Below are positions 2,721 to 34,902 of a stretch of DNA of 37,256 bases, one piece after another; within the stretch, counting starts at the first letter, position 1, and every line of letters begins with the position of its first letter. Position numbers and translations under genes: made by a program. The stretch covers positions 1 to 37,256 of the forward strand of contig CALYAJ010000016.1 of the NCBI GenBank assembly GCA_944393485.1, read 5' to 3'. A model generated the notes under the pieces. The model was not told the DNA's origin. It saw nothing but the letters and a program-made list of their open reading frames with translations, and ran no database searches. The stretch is from an uncultured Clostridia bacterium. GTDB lineage: Bacteria > Bacillota > Clostridia > TANB77 > CAG-508.

Positions 2721-2734
2721 CGTAAATTTCACAC

Positions 2735-2753
2735 AAAATTGCACTGCAATTTT
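2735..2753. repeat. Perfect 9-bp inverted repeat between asnS and rho
   Basis: AAAATTGCA and TGCAATTTT flank a single C. It lies between the two convergent terminators and is explained by neither. It may be a relic or a small operator. Confidence 0.5.
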
Positions 2754-2788
2754 GGCGAACGAACAAAGACGGGACATATAAGTTATTT

Positions 2789-2814
2789 AAAAGGGCATAA
2801 ATCATGCCCCTTTT
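2789..2814 (-). terminator. Terminator of rho
   Basis: AAAAGGGCAT and ATGCCCCTTTT pair with one bulged base. Read on the minus strand the stem ends in a T run, 14 bases past the rho stop. Confidence 0.85.
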
Positions 2815-2827
2815 GTTCTATTTCCTA

Positions 2828-19354: not shown

Positions 19355-19499
19355 AATTACACCTTCTTATTATTTTTCCTACAATATTATAGCATTTTTT
19401 ACGTAAATATCAAGTATAGCTTCTTTCATAAAAATCTAATTTCCTTTATATCAAAAGCATTTGGCCTAGTATCTCTTTGAACTAATTAAAATAAGAGAA

Positions 19500-20063: not shown

Positions 20064-20795
20064 TTAATTCGAGTTACATGCTTCCCAGCGCATTTTAAGC
20101 GTCGGGTCGACAAGAACTTCACCGTTTGAAAGTGGAACATAATGTTTCTTCCTGCGGTATCCCGCTGCTTTCAGTGCATTTACCAGATCCCAGTTTTTGG
20201 TTATGTAGGTCTTTCCATCACTACACAGGAAAATGCACACGCCGTTATTTGTATCATATGTTCCCATATATTCAGCAACGACGCTGTCAAAGAAAGAACC
20301 ACCAATTGGAGCAAAGATTTTGTCTCCTTCAAGCGGATGGTGAGCCTTCATACCGATTGCCGGGATCTGCATAGCCTGCTTAAGAAGATCGTCGGATATT
20401 TCACCGATTCCATTCTTTTCGCAGAACTCTGCACAGTCTTTAATGAACTGCTCCTTGCGACTCCGATCCTGCTCAGCTCTTAAAGATTCCCACTTTGCTT
20501 TATACTGCAAAGGGAAATCTCCGTTGGAAAACGGTACATAAAAACTAGCTTCACAGAAGCCTTCGTCCTCCAACAACTTGTAGGCATTCCACATTGCAGG
20601 TATTACAAATACCTTTCCTTCATCAACGAAATAAATCGTTCCGTTGTTCCAGGAATACTTGTGTTCGTATCTCTCAGGAATGTCCCCTAGCGAAAGCCGT
20701 TCAGGTCTGATATACAAAGGCCATGAGATCTGAAGTCCCGTAAAGACCTCTACTGCATCGTTCCGAAGCTCCATCATATTTTTGTATTCTTTCAT
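20064..20795 (-). CDS. Accessory protein with an internal duplication, 243 aa
   Basis: I do not recognise this family. The protein is built from two copies of a ~58-residue module, at 47-104 and 181-239. Each has NNG and a hydrophobic strand, a short D/E-G-K turn with a strand, a helix with W and L-x-x-x-G, then YVPFSNGD or YVPLSNGE, and a final basic helix ending K-x-x-W-E. A helical linker (105-150) joins them. The product is soluble with no signal peptide. The base composition is strikingly richer in G and C than every neighbour, which speaks for recent transfer. AAGGAGG precedes the ATG. It has its own terminator and an inverted repeat just upstream. Confidence 0.7.
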   Translation of the reverse strand: MKEYKNMMELRNDAVEVFTGLQISWPLYIRPERLSLGDIPERYEHKYSWNNGTIYFVDEGKVFVIPAMWNAYKLLEDEGFCEASFYVPFSNGDFPLQYKAKWESLRAEQDRSRKEQFIKDCAEFCEKNGIGEISDDLLKQAMQIPAIGMKAHHPLEGDKIFAPIGGSFFDSVVAEYMGTYDTNNGVCIFLCSDGKTYITKNWDLVNALKAAGYRRKKHYVPLSNGEVLVDPTLKMRWEACNSN

Positions 20796-29570: not shown

Positions 29571-31113
29571 AAGCTTTAAATATAGTTTTTCCTTCTTTTA
29601 TTGTTTCTAAAATCTTTATATTTTTAATATCATCTTTATCTATTTTTAATGGATTTTTATCTAAAATAACTAAATCAGCCTTTTTACCCTCTTTAATACT
29701 ACCTTTTAAATTTTCTTCTCCATATTGATATGCAGAATTAATAGTAACAGCTTTAATTGCTTCAAGAACTGGAATCTGTTCTGTTTCTCCTAGTACTACT
29801 CCTTCTTTTGTTTTTCTATTTACAGCACACCAGATTGTTTCAAACATATTTGGAATTGTTACAGGAGTATCTTGATGAAATGTAAATAAAATATTTTCTT
29901 TTAAACTTGAACCTGCAGGACTAATATGCTCTGCTCGCTCTATTCCTAAGTTTTTTATATGAATATCTCCAAAATAATATACATGTCCTATAAAAAATGA
30001 TGGAATTATATTATATTTCTTTATATCTTCTAATTGATCTAATCCCAAAATTTGTGCATGTATCATAACAGGTCTTTTTAGATTATTAACTTTTTTAATT
30101 GAATCTATATATTGTTCTATTGCCTTATCTCCATTACAATGTGCCAAAACCTGTAGGTCTTGATTTTTAGCTTGAAGTAAAATACTTTCTAATTTATCAT
30201 CTGATAAAATTCTATAACCTGAGTATTCTTGTTCACCTTCATATGGAGTTCTAAGCCATGCTGTTTTAGCTTGTGGTGAACCATCCAAAAATATTTTTAT
30301 TCCTCCAATTTTAAAATTTTTATTATATTTTAATAAATTTTCTTTAAATAATTCTTCAATTTTATTTACTGATTTTTCTTCCATATATGCAACAATATCT
30401 AAAAATAAATCATTATTATCAACTAATGATTTATAAACTTTAGCAAGTTCTATTGTCATACAACCTTCTTGTGCAGTTGTTATCCCATAAGATGCATATG
30501 TTTCTTGTGCTTTATTAAAAGCTTTTTGAATATTTTCTATTTTTGGAAGAGGAACTTTTTTAAGAGAATTAATAAATGCTGATTCCTCTAAATATCCTGT
30601 TTCATATATAATTCTTCCACCTTCTGGATTTTTTGTTTTTTCGCTTATTCCTAATTTTTCTAAGGCTTTACTATTTGCTATTCCATTATGTCTAGATTTG
30701 TTTTCAATAATTACTGGAATATCAGGAAATATTTCATTAAGCTCTTGTTTTGTTATATGTCTTTTTTCTTTTAATTCATTAATATCATATCCATTAATAA
30801 TTATCCAATCATCTGTTTGGTTGTGCTTTTTATATTCTTTTAACTTATTTTTAATATCAGTTATACTTTTAGCATCATCTATTGAAACTTCTAAAAATTG
30901 TTTTGCCAATCCAAATATATGGCTATGTGCATCTATAAAAGATGGCATCATTGTTCTTCCTTTTAAGTCTATTACTTCAGTATCTTTATCTACTAAGTTT
31001 AATACTTCATCTTTATTGCCTGTTTTTAAGATTTTATCATTTTCAATTACAACGCCCTCTATTTCATTTTTTTCTAATGTTATAAAATCTCCATTTATAT
31101 AAATTTTTTTCAT
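29569..31113 (-). CDS. Amidohydrolase, YtcJ-like
   Basis: A 514-residue metal-dependent hydrolase of the amidohydrolase-3 group (YtcJ / N-substituted formamide deformylase-like). The N-terminal beta domain leads into the metal motif DAHSHIFG (H63, H65). Further ligands are likely in QVLAHCNGDKAIEQY and RPVMIHAQI, with a late Asp/His region around FTFHQDTPV. The C-terminus returns to the beta domain (KKADLVILDKNPL). Substrate unknown. The ATG has TTACCTCC on the complement, that is GGAGGTAA, as its ribosome binding site. Transcribed alone. Confidence 0.9.
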   Translation of the reverse strand: MKKIYINGDFITLEKNEIEGVVIENDKILKTGNKDEVLNLVDKDTEVIDLKGRTMMPSFIDAHSHIFGLAKQFLEVSIDDAKSITDIKNKLKEYKKHNQTDDWIIINGYDINELKEKRHITKQELNEIFPDIPVIIENKSRHNGIANSKALEKLGISEKTKNPEGGRIIYETGYLEESAFINSLKKVPLPKIENIQKAFNKAQETYASYGITTAQEGCMTIELAKVYKSLVDNNDLFLDIVAYMEEKSVNKIEELFKENLLKYNKNFKIGGIKIFLDGSPQAKTAWLRTPYEGEQEYSGYRILSDDKLESILLQAKNQDLQVLAHCNGDKAIEQYIDSIKKVNNLKRPVMIHAQILGLDQLEDIKKYNIIPSFFIGHVYYFGDIHIKNLGIERAEHISPAGSSLKENILFTFHQDTPVTIPNMFETIWCAVNRKTKEGVVLGETEQIPVLEAIKAVTINSAYQYGEENLKGSIKEGKKADLVILDKNPLKIDKDDIKNIKILETIKEGKTIFKA

Positions 31114-31169
31114 AACTTACCTCCATGTTAATTCTCTATAAGTATTTCCATATTCACAAAAATTAAACC

Positions 31170-31201
31170 TTTTGAACTTTAGGGACGGTCCTTAAAGTTC
31201 A
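31170..31201. repeat. Left copy of a 32-nt inverted repeat (near-palindrome)
   Basis: The core GAACTTTAGGGACGGTCC plus TTAAAGTTC (31174-31200) is almost self-complementary: 8 bp GAACTTTA/TAAAGTTC, then GGGAC/GTCCT with one mismatched pair. An exact reverse-complement copy, including TTTT before and A after, lies at 33562-33593. The two bracket the methyltransferase-like pair. Confidence 0.9.
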
Positions 31202-31212
31202 TAAACATGGAG

Positions 31213-31242
31213 AAAGCGGAAGAATTAAACTTCTTCCGCTTT
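31213..31242 (-). terminator. Terminator of the second DUF3419-like gene
   Basis: AAAGCGGAAGAA and TTCTTCCGCTTT pair perfectly around TTAAAC, 11 bases past the stop. No T run follows on the minus strand beyond the stem. Confidence 0.8.
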
Positions 31243-31252
31243 GATTTACATG

Positions 31253-32281
31253 TTACTTAAGTTTTAATGCAAGTACAATATCAGTTGGTGTATTGTATGC
31301 AATAAAACCATTTCCTGTTTTTACAGGTATAATTTCAACATTAAATGTTTTTAACAGTTCTGTATAAAGAATCATCGTAAAAACGATTTGTTGTTGAACT
31401 CCCTGCATAAGAAGTTGGTTTCCTGCAAAATAAGCCATATTTAGATCTGTCTCACATAACTTAATTCTGTCAGATCCTGCCTTTGTTGCTTCAAACCAAT
31501 CTTCCTTCATTCCGATGCAGTATAAAATCATTACTCCATCTTTTTTTAGAAATTTGCTTAATTTCTTTATATTTTCTGCATATTCTTCTGGTAGATAAAA
31601 ATTATGCAGATTTGAAAGATGGATTAAATCCATACTTCCTTCTGATACCTGAACATCAAAAATATCTTTTTCTTCGATAAAGATATTCGATTCATTCAGG
31701 GCTTTTCTTGCCTTTCTGAATCGCATTTGATCCGGGTAATCGAATCTAATTATTCTTTCTGAGCGATGTTTAATGTAATTTCTTTCACTCATAAGATAAT
31801 TTAGACGAATGTCTAAAGGATCTTTCTCCTTATAGACGCTTTCCCAGAATTCTTTTTCCGGACAAGACTCAGTTTTAGATAATATACTTTCCATTATTTC
31901 TCTTGAAAGCATATTATTTCCCTTTGTGCTAAGCACAAACTTCTGAAACTTTCCAGGTGTCAAGTTTAAAACAGACTGATATTTCAGCCAATCCACCGGA
32001 AATTGTAGTGGATTAACATCTACTGCATAGATGTTTCTTGCTCCATATAAAGCCATATCAATGATATGGTCAAAACTTCCCGCAATCGCCAAAACGTCAG
32101 CACCATTTTTTATAATCCGTGACATATAACTACTATTTTCGTTAGATGTCCAAGATGGCGCCATTGTTTTGTAGGAATATCCATCATCTTTAGTTGTAAC
32201 TTGAGATGATGAAACTACCTTGCTATTGTAAAACATCCTTACCAATTCTTTTACACTTTTTTCATTATTAATTTTCAACAT
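31253..32281 (-). CDS. DUF3419-like SAM-dependent methyltransferase-type protein, copy 2
   Basis: A 342-residue protein with a Rossmann SAM-binding core like the DUF3419 family: motif I VLAIAGSFDHIID (63-75), acidic strand end YAVDVNPLQ (85-93), and a later segment DLIHLSNLHNFY. The GSxD and D-x-N-P-x-Q pattern is the family signature. It is a clear paralogue of the upstream gene: both share APxWTSNEN, the motif I region, ESNIF/ESTIY, LSNLHNFY, YCIGMK/YFIGMK and the C-terminal PVKTGxGxxxYNTPTD. Some DUF3419 proteins transfer the 3-amino-3-carboxypropyl group of SAM instead of methyl. Substrate unknown. It has its own promoter and GGAG site. Less AT-biased than neighbours. Confidence 0.8.
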   Translation of the reverse strand: MLKINNEKSVKELVRMFYNSKVVSSSQVTTKDDGYSYKTMAPSWTSNENSSYMSRIIKNGADVLAIAGSFDHIIDMALYGARNIYAVDVNPLQFPVDWLKYQSVLNLTPGKFQKFVLSTKGNNMLSREIMESILSKTESCPEKEFWESVYKEKDPLDIRLNYLMSERNYIKHRSERIIRFDYPDQMRFRKARKALNESNIFIEEKDIFDVQVSEGSMDLIHLSNLHNFYLPEEYAENIKKLSKFLKKDGVMILYCIGMKEDWFEATKAGSDRIKLCETDLNMAYFAGNQLLMQGVQQQIVFTMILYTELLKTFNVEIIPVKTGNGFIAYNTPTDIVLALKLK

Positions 32282-32324
32282 GCTTTTTCTCCTTTATTCT
32301 GCATTTTTTTACTGTACAATAAAT

Positions 32325-32353
32325 ATTATATCATGTTAACATAATTTAATCAA
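32325..32353 (-). promoter_or_regulatory. Sigma-A promoter of DUF3419-like copy 2
   Basis: Minus strand TTGATT, a 17-base spacer and TATAAT, about 40 bases before the ATG. Confidence 0.72.
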
Positions 32354-32398
32354 TAATAAATATTTTTTTCTAATTATGTATATATTTAACAGAAGAAT

Positions 32399-32427
32399 AA
32401 CAGGAGAAATTACATCTTCCCCCTGTT
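32399..32427 (-). terminator. Terminator of DUF3419-like copy 1
   Basis: AACAGG and CCTGTT pair, extended inside by GAA/TTC-type pairs with a mismatch, and a T-rich tract follows on the minus strand. Confidence 0.65.
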
Positions 32428-32448
32428 ATAAATACGCATATAACAATT

Positions 32449-33468
32449 TTATTTTGATTGCAACACCAATATGCAATCAGTTGGAGTATTATAGAACATG
32501 TAACCTTTCCCAGTTTTTACTGGCAAAAGTGAAACCTTAAAATATTTTTTTATCTTTTTATAAAGGTTTCCTGTATCATAAATTTGCTGTAAAACTCCCA
32601 ATTTCTTAATTCCATCTTTGATATATGCTCTGTTCAGATCTTTTTCCTCTACATCTGGGAAAAGATCTTTATCCCAGGAATCAAACCACTCTGGCTTCAT
32701 TCCAATGAAGTACAATACAATTCTTCCATCTTTTTTTAGTTTTGATGAAAGCTCTCTTAATTTTTCTACATAATAATCTATTGGATAGAAATTATGCAGA
32801 TTTGACAAGCAAACCACATCAAAAACATTTTCGGGAATATACATATCAAATATATCTTCCCTTTCAAGATATATTGTACTTTCATTTAATGCTTTTCGAA
32901 CTTTATCCCAGTTCTCTTTTTTTACGTATTCAAAATTTATACGCCTTCCTTCCCCTGTTCTTAAATAATATGTTTCATTTGCGAAATATTTTAATCGCAT
33001 TTCTAAAGAAGTATTTTCCTTATAAACAAGTCTCCAGAACTTATTTTCTTCAGAGATTTCTGTGCGATCTAATATTTTGCCTGCGAGCCTGTCAGATAAT
33101 GCAAATATTGACGCATCAATAACAAAGCTTTCAAACTCGTAATAATTATCTAACTTAGTTAAAGCATAATACTTTAACCAGCAAATTGGAATTTGAACCG
33201 GGTTGACATCAACAGAGTATATATTCCGAATGCCATGTAATGCCATATCAAAAATAGCATCCATGGAACCGCCAATAGTTAGCACAGTATCTGATGGCTT
33301 TAACATTTGGCGTATATACTGCCCATTTTCATTTGATGTCCATATTGGTGCAACATGATTATAAGGGCTCTTATCTCTTACGTCATGAAAGAACATTACA
33401 TCATGACGTGTATTATAAAAATGGTCCCGTAAAGCCTGAGCATTTTTTTGATTTTTTGTTATTAGCAT
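32449..33468 (-). CDS. DUF3419-like SAM-dependent methyltransferase-type protein, copy 1
   Basis: A 339-residue paralogue of the next gene. Motif I is VLTIGGSMDAIFD (62-74), the acidic strand end YSVDVNPVQ (84-92), then a long helical insert with FWRLVYKE, and the late segment VVCLSNLHNFYPIDYY. The C-terminus reads PVKTGKGYMFYNTPTD. No signal peptide or membrane helix. The two proteins are alike over the whole length but clearly diverged, so the duplication is old or they arrived as a pair. Its promoter is a perfect TTGACA-17-TATAAT. GGAGGA precedes the ATG. Each gene has its own promoter and terminator despite the tandem order. Confidence 0.8.
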   Translation of the reverse strand: MLITKNQKNAQALRDHFYNTRHDVMFFHDVRDKSPYNHVAPIWTSNENGQYIRQMLKPSDTVLTIGGSMDAIFDMALHGIRNIYSVDVNPVQIPICWLKYYALTKLDNYYEFESFVIDASIFALSDRLAGKILDRTEISEENKFWRLVYKENTSLEMRLKYFANETYYLRTGEGRRINFEYVKKENWDKVRKALNESTIYLEREDIFDMYIPENVFDVVCLSNLHNFYPIDYYVEKLRELSSKLKKDGRIVLYFIGMKPEWFDSWDKDLFPDVEEKDLNRAYIKDGIKKLGVLQQIYDTGNLYKKIKKYFKVSLLPVKTGKGYMFYNTPTDCILVLQSK

Positions 33469-33501
33469 ATTTTCTTCCTCCTACTTATTTTAATCTATAA
33501 G

Positions 33502-33530
33502 ATTATATTACTTTTCAAGTATTATGTCAA
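33502..33530 (-). promoter_or_regulatory. Consensus sigma-A promoter of DUF3419-like copy 1
   Basis: Minus strand TTGACA, a 17-base spacer and TATAAT: a perfect match to the consensus, about 30 bases before the AGGAGG site. Confidence 0.88.
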
Positions 33531-33561
33531 TTAGGCAGATGCTAGTAGTCTACATAATTTT

Positions 33562-33593
33562 TGAACTTTAAGGACCGTCCCTAAAGTTCAAAA
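33562..33593. repeat. Right copy of the 32-nt inverted repeat (near-palindrome)
   Basis: Exact reverse complement of 31170-31201. Core GAACTTTAAGGACCGTCC plus CTAAAGTTC at 33563-33589. It marks the right border of the 2.4-kb methyltransferase pair. Confidence 0.9.
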
Positions 33594-33600
33594 AAAGTGA

Positions 33601-33642
33601 AAAATGAGATTGCAACGTTATTTTACGTCACAATCTCATTTT
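33601..33642 (-). terminator. Terminator of the 48-aa gene
   Basis: AAAATGAGATTG and CAATCTCATTTT pair perfectly; inside, ACGT/ACGT adds a second short stem. It lies four bases past the stop of the small gene, with a T-rich tract on the minus strand. Confidence 0.82.
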
Positions 33643-33645
33643 ATG

Positions 33646-33792
33646 TTATGGTCTTTTTTTCAGAGCTTCATTTTCATGAGCCAATCTTTTGTCTCTTTTG
33701 GTCATTAATTCCCAGTTGCCATTGTGAGTTTTTGTCCACAACAGTTTATTTTTATTAGGATTTGCAATTTCTCTCCGTTTTTTTCTTCCCAT
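33646..33792 (-). CDS. Small basic protein, 48 aa
   Basis: Read by hand. AGGAGGT, eight bases of spacer, then ATG at 33792 opens a 48-codon frame starting MGRKKRREIANPNKNKLLW and ending LAHENEALKKRP. It is strongly basic (K and R rich), has two Trp and no hydrophobic segment, so nucleic-acid binding or a ribosome-linked role is possible but unproven. An extended -10 (TGATATAAT, about 33819-33826) lies upstream and a terminator follows. A second ATG seven bases earlier opens only a 30-codon frame. It lies immediately outside the right palindrome and on the same strand as the methyltransferase pair. Confidence 0.65.
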   Translation of the reverse strand: MGRKKRREIANPNKNKLLWTKTHNGNWELMTKRDKRLAHENEALKKRP

Positions 33793-34858: not shown

Positions 34859-34899
34859 TAAGGACATCCCTTAAAAATAAAAGAGTGTCCCTAAAGTTC
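34859..34899. repeat. Degenerate copy of the GAACTTTA palindrome
   Basis: GTCCCTAAAGTTC at 34887-34899 is identical to the last 13 bases of the right repeat, and TAAGGAC at 34859-34865 matches the other arm. About 21 bases separate them. It looks like a decayed or interrupted member of the same repeat family. Confidence 0.6.
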
Positions 34900-34902
34900 T
34901 AA

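Follow-up and report, generated by a model that had tools for sequence, protein, structure and literature searches.

The window analysed here, a stretch of 37,256 nucleotides, is the entire contig C16 of an uncultured Clostridia assembly (genome G000; 1.8 Mb in 104 contigs). Two copies of a 32-nt near-palindrome, TTTTGAACTTTAGGGACGGTCCTTAAAGTTCA at 31170-31201 and its exact reverse complement at 33562-33593, enclose two ORFs, D1 and D2, and no others. Both ORFs are on the minus strand and are paralogues. The palindromes are referred to as REPs, in the orientations L and R, and an L and an R that face each other are called an inward pair. The features of the locus are as follows:

31170-31201, plus strand: left REP in orientation L, a 32-nt near-palindrome with core GAACTTTAGGGACGGTCCTTAAAGTTC
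31210-31250, minus strand: terminator-like hairpin 3' of D1 (DNA fold z -7.9)
31253-32281, minus strand: D1, a divergent DUF3419-type predicted SAM-binding protein of 342 aa with a predicted class I methyltransferase fold
32325-32353, minus strand: promoter-like site of D1, TTGATT-17-TATAAT, TG-extended
32397-32429, minus strand: terminator-like hairpin 3' of D2
32449-33468, minus strand: D2, paralogue of D1, 339 aa, 45% identical
33502-33530, minus strand: promoter-like site of D2, TTGACA-17-TATAAT, 12/12
33562-33593, plus strand: right REP in orientation R, exact reverse complement of the left REP
34871-34902, plus strand: third REP, right half only (GTCCCTAAAGTTC), a relic beside the PFK gene; genome G008 has a full REP there

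The 27-nt core pattern of the palindrome was matched twice in the window and not once in 100 shuffles. Both 32-nt copies fold as hairpins, beating nearly all of 200 shuffles, and no match was obtained when the window was searched against Rfam. The promoter-like site matched at all 12 positions for D2 and at 10 of 12, with an extended -10, for D1; promoter-like matches in general were no more frequent than in shuffles. Each gene is followed by a hairpin, terminator-like for D2 and strong for D1. The exact inverted palindromes, the paralogous pair alone between them, and the separate promoter and terminator of each gene had all been described in an initial annotation made from the letters alone, and each of these descriptions was borne out. 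The same annotation had remarked that the codons of the two genes are less AT-biased than their surroundings. The GC content at the third codon position was 0.26 in D1 and D2, whereas almost every other gene in the window had 0.06-0.13. Hence, the foreign codon use of the pair is real and, judged by composition, the D1-D2 stretch appears to be horizontally acquired. The half-repeat relic adjoining the PFK gene had been overlooked.

Two other parts of the window deserve mention. A 243-aa ORF at 20064-20795 has a third-position GC of 0.46, far above every neighbour, and is likely a recent import; near it, similar repeats (CAAGCAAATGAGCTT..) occur at 19492 and 19983, about 490 bp apart. G000 also contains about 20 copies of another interspersed repeat, which is unrelated to the REP and reaches about 146 bp (for example, window 2723-2818 and C20:8829-8974).

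D1 and D2 scored 31.9 and 42.9 bits, respectively, with the Pfam DUF3419 profile (PF11899), both above the gathering cut-off of 28.2, and they have a D-x-N-P-x-Q stretch in common with that family. The matches are, however, partial and very diverged. A structure model of D1 (pLDDT 77.5) shows a class I SAM-dependent methyltransferase fold with an extra helical part. When compared with the PDB, the model matched generic class I methyltransferases at Z of about 12, none of them prominent, and no BtaA-type structure was among the matches listed. Searches with the D genes against PADLOC and PHROGs gave weak methyltransferase-like matches only. Some DUF3419 members are known to transfer an aminocarboxypropyl group from SAM, and we take D1 and D2 to be comparable to the BtaA-type aminocarboxypropyl transferases. 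Going by family membership, D1 and D2 would move a methyl or an aminocarboxypropyl group from SAM onto a small molecule or a lipid. Among the genomes searched, the D family was found in this genus only: a GTDB scan returned four genus members only, a class-wide sample of 291 genomes contained no relatives except G000 itself, and none was found in phage, plasmid or viral collections.

The core palindrome occurs at 51 places in G000, while a reversed control gave none, so the ends of the D1-D2 stretch are of the REP type, as had been proposed. In the genus, whose other members are assemblies of uncultured Clostridia, the family is present in 9 of 14 genomes, and four of these, including G000, have at least 32 copies. 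The copies are mostly intergenic and are arranged as close inverted doublets (46-48 nt apart), noncoding units of 150-280 bp, gene-sized inward pairs, and solitary copies, the last being numerous at gene ends. The loop of the palindrome varies with the species (GGTCC, GGACC, GTTCC, GGAGC). It was also observed that the REP often supplies the TGA stop codon of the abutting gene, or lies directly 5' of a GGAGG ribosome site (L022:10362-10391; L128-L131), which suggests that gene ends may be preferred as targets. At C7:47990-48074 of G007 the palindrome is extended and includes an inner hairpin (CCACTCTAGAAATTTTTAATTTCG..GAGTGG); G000 has the 27-nt form at that site. The two ends carried an inner motif, ACATAA/TTATGT, in opposite polarity in all six classifiable short units and in only three of six gene-bearing units by an automatic rule; this was set aside as evidence.

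The initial annotation had noted that movement of the stretch would need a transposase supplied in trans, and a candidate exists. The single Y1_Tnp gene of G000, at C50:4204-4971, lies inside an L..R pair at C50:4143-5088. Its product matched the NCBIfam model for REP-associated tyrosine transposases (RAYT) with an E-value of 4.8e-17 and 62 bits, below the cut-off of 80, and contains the motifs NHAHF and YIHNNP. Orthologues in G005, G003, and G004 share its QueH-glycosyltransferase locus and its flanking palindromes, so that the RAYT is bracketed by two inverted copies in all four genomes. Distant RAYTs, of 36-41% identity, are found at other loci in G002, G011, and G006, and as a second gene in G005, with a different palindrome on either side (TAGGGATTT...AAATCCCTA); the RAYT of G013 has a third palindrome type. 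Repeat type and RAYT type therefore change together in the genus, and the REP palindromes are presumably made by the RAYT with the same inverted ends. Three RAYT types, each with its own palindrome, in one genus (L149-L156) are a set fit for a study of coevolution. At the QueH-glycosyltransferase site G007 and G006 have half-REP relics only, the RAYT unit being gone. No RAYT is left in the G007 assembly, though G007 shares the D1-D2 tract described below. Next to the RAYT unit of G004, two copies of the right end in direct orientation flank a RhuM gene (L131:2440-3640), as though the gene had come in together with one REP.

These arrangements resemble the known REP/RAYT systems (REPtrons, REPINs; Nunvar 2010, PMC2817692; Bertels 2011, PMC3116915): a single-copy IS200-like HUH gene flanked by a pair of inverted REPs occupies a conserved locus, palindromes number in the tens per genome and often form close inverted doublets, and repeat and RAYT types change together, a behaviour described for REPs and RAYTs (PMC2817692). 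The present system differs from them in its Clostridia-lineage host, in ends that also bracket 0.5-2.4 kb of other genes, and in the foot of the hairpin, where the listed flanks have no unpaired GTAG. By the last feature it sits closer to the TIRtron class (TIRtrons/TIRYT; Di Nocera 2013, PMC3733652). There, too, a RAYT-like gene lies between long inverted repeats without GTAG, and in some genomes the repeats are themselves repeated and arranged as dimers (PMC3733652). The G013 palindrome type carries GGGGACAG, which fits the TIRtron motif GGGGWSAS (PMC3733652). Gene cargo between the ends, in contrast, is not among the TIRtron features described in the text consulted (PMC3733652).

A search for other loci with the same ends and different cargo had been suggested, and inverted pairs around other genes were indeed seen. 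In G000 nine inward pairs 300-2600 bp apart were observed, compared with 0.78 expected at random placement (P <= 5e-5). At spacings of 300-3500 bp, G000, G008, and G004 together had 19 inward pairs and one outward pair; a few of these are shared by descent, and not all are independent. Among the cargo were a His phosphatase, a TetR regulator, a DUF2383-like protein, TspO, the RAYT, and several unknowns. Two of the longest inward pairs of G008 (2.6-2.9 kb) enclose core genes, pyrH and the por operon, and are probably due to chance. These figures bear on a reading by coincidence, in which the D genes came otherwise and the two REPs were inserted later and independently, as ordinary intergenic REPs, perhaps terminators. 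Such a reading draws on the G008 pairs around core genes, on the many solitary REPs at gene ends, and on cargos that are found without REPs: a 77% copy of the His phosphatase gene at another G008 locus, the 367-aa gene of G008 described below, and the D genes of three relatives. Independent insertion leaves unaccounted for both the ratio of 19 inward pairs to one outward pair and the excess of close pairs, and we consider it rather unlikely.

The cargo at a given site turns over between species. Between FtsZ and AddB, a His phosphatase gene lies between the REPs in G000, and an FtsX-like protein with an ABC ATPase (an ABC transporter) in G008; G003 has one REP there, and G004 and G010 have nothing. 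At a site adjoining a tyrosyl-tRNA synthetase-like gene, G007 has a sel1-repeat gene beside a 144-aa module that is inverted relative to G000. Different gene modules between the same conserved genes, with short palindromes nearby, are likewise found in the minimal mobile elements of Neisseria and their dRS3/NIME repeats (PMC3898611). Those elements are defined by recombination alone, without a dedicated enzyme (PMC3898611), whereas a cognate RAYT exists here and the breakpoints, as will be seen, are at palindromes.

Four genomes (G000, G005, G007, and G008) have a 367-aa gene at the rnpB-RluD site; G003, G006, G010, and G011 lack it. When G005 was compared with the empty site of G010, the edges of the insertion coincided with the outer REP edges, giving a clean empty site flush with the ends, and no target duplication was seen. 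In G008 the gene is at its usual site without REPs. The REP-edged insertion would suit a true composite transposon, in which the RAYT, acting in trans, carries REP-cargo-REP units to new sites. The identity of the RAYT ends with the ends of the cargo modules agrees with this, as do noncoding MITE-like units of 247-276 bp (C15:13961, C21:14034) that are absent from the matching spots of G007, though with junctions that are not base-clean. Against it, every cargo compared was at orthologous sites, none being seen with REP ends at two unrelated loci, and the RAYT itself occupies one constant locus in four species. Transposition of this kind is improbable. Separately, a solitary L at C12:5625, where G007 has an extra 0.9 kb, was considered as a cassette excision and ruled out, the difference being a deletion inside the gene next to the REP.

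The D1-D2 locus was compared with the same site, between the amidohydrolase and PFK genes, in the relatives. In G007 the module is found again in the corresponding position. Over an 8-kb alignment of G000 with G007, the best-fit tract of raised identity was 31176-33596, at the edges of the REPs, with 3-log-likelihood intervals of 31076-31281 and 33551-33661 for the two breakpoints. Within the tract there are 16 substitutions in 2420 bp (99.3% identity), noncoding parts included, while outside it the identity falls to about 94% on the left and 78-96% on the right. The noncoding spacers match as closely as the genes do, so constraint on the proteins is not the reason for this identity. In the 168 kb of G000-G007 alignment, from a comparison that covered about 370 kb of G000 and 930 kb of G007, just one other stretch was equally similar. 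Since the best-fit breakpoints are at both REPs, the D1-D2 stretch was probably exchanged as a REP-delimited block, and recently, between the two sister lineages. This REP-edged exchange is the strongest new point of the analysis. The other stretch, on C28 (L036:14783-18672), is 3.9 kb long and 99.2% identical to G007, and contains a REP doublet inside; it is another recent exchange, not REP-ended as far as seen.

The position of the breakpoints also bears on two of the alternatives. Independent insertion of the two REPs does not account for a tract that ends at both of them. If homologous recombination in conserved flanking genes exchanged whole-gene modules at fixed spots, with the REPs as bystanders, as in a minimal mobile element, the breakpoints would be expected inside the flanking genes; at the one locus tested they are at the REPs. 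The fixed spots between conserved genes and their species-dependent content speak for such swapping, to which we nevertheless give little credence.

The other relatives carry a different message. G006 has both D paralogues at this site in swapped order and without REPs, and G002 and G011 have one DUF3419-like gene each, again without REPs. In the tree, the split between D1 and D2 is older than that between G000 and G006. In view of these REP-free copies and the early split, the D genes probably occupied the site before the present REP-bounded version. G003 and G004 carry no gene between the flanks, and the spacers there have diverged too far for a joint to be recognised. An empty site with one repeat left, anticipated by the initial annotation, was not found for the D1-D2 pair. 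The mobilised cassette that it had proposed is thus upheld in part: the REP-bounded stretch has a history different from that of its flanks, as the comparison with G007 indicates, but D genes are at the same site without REPs in three relatives, and this comes near to what had been named there as counting against a cassette.

Taken as a whole, we consider it reasonably probable that a REP/RAYT system is at work, in which inward ends delimit gene modules and D1-D2 is one such module, recently exchanged as a REP-ended block. The two 32-nt palindromes are REP ends, matching the inverted ends of a RAYT, an HUH, IS200-like single-strand transposase encoded elsewhere. At fixed spots in between conserved genes, where the gene content turns over from species to species, facing pairs of these ends would mark off modules of gene size, and the D1-D2 stretch would have been horizontally acquired and then exchanged between sister species, ending at the REPs. 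The REPs may guide the exchange by either of two routes: the RAYT could cut at the hairpin feet and move a single-stranded block, or recombination could take place between REP copies. A bolder version, which we hold to be unlikely, is a gene-cassette exchanger, in which REP-bounded genes, singly or in growing rows (L-gene-R-gene-R), would be cut and joined at REPs through single-stranded intermediates, an integron-like capture built on a domesticated HUH transposase.

Few repeats are as common in bacteria as REP palindromes. If blocks of gene size that pass between species are also bounded by REP ends, as the favoured reading has it, RAYTs would take part in accessory-gene turnover. This genus, in which at least six sites vary and one sister pair is close, is a direct test ground for this idea.
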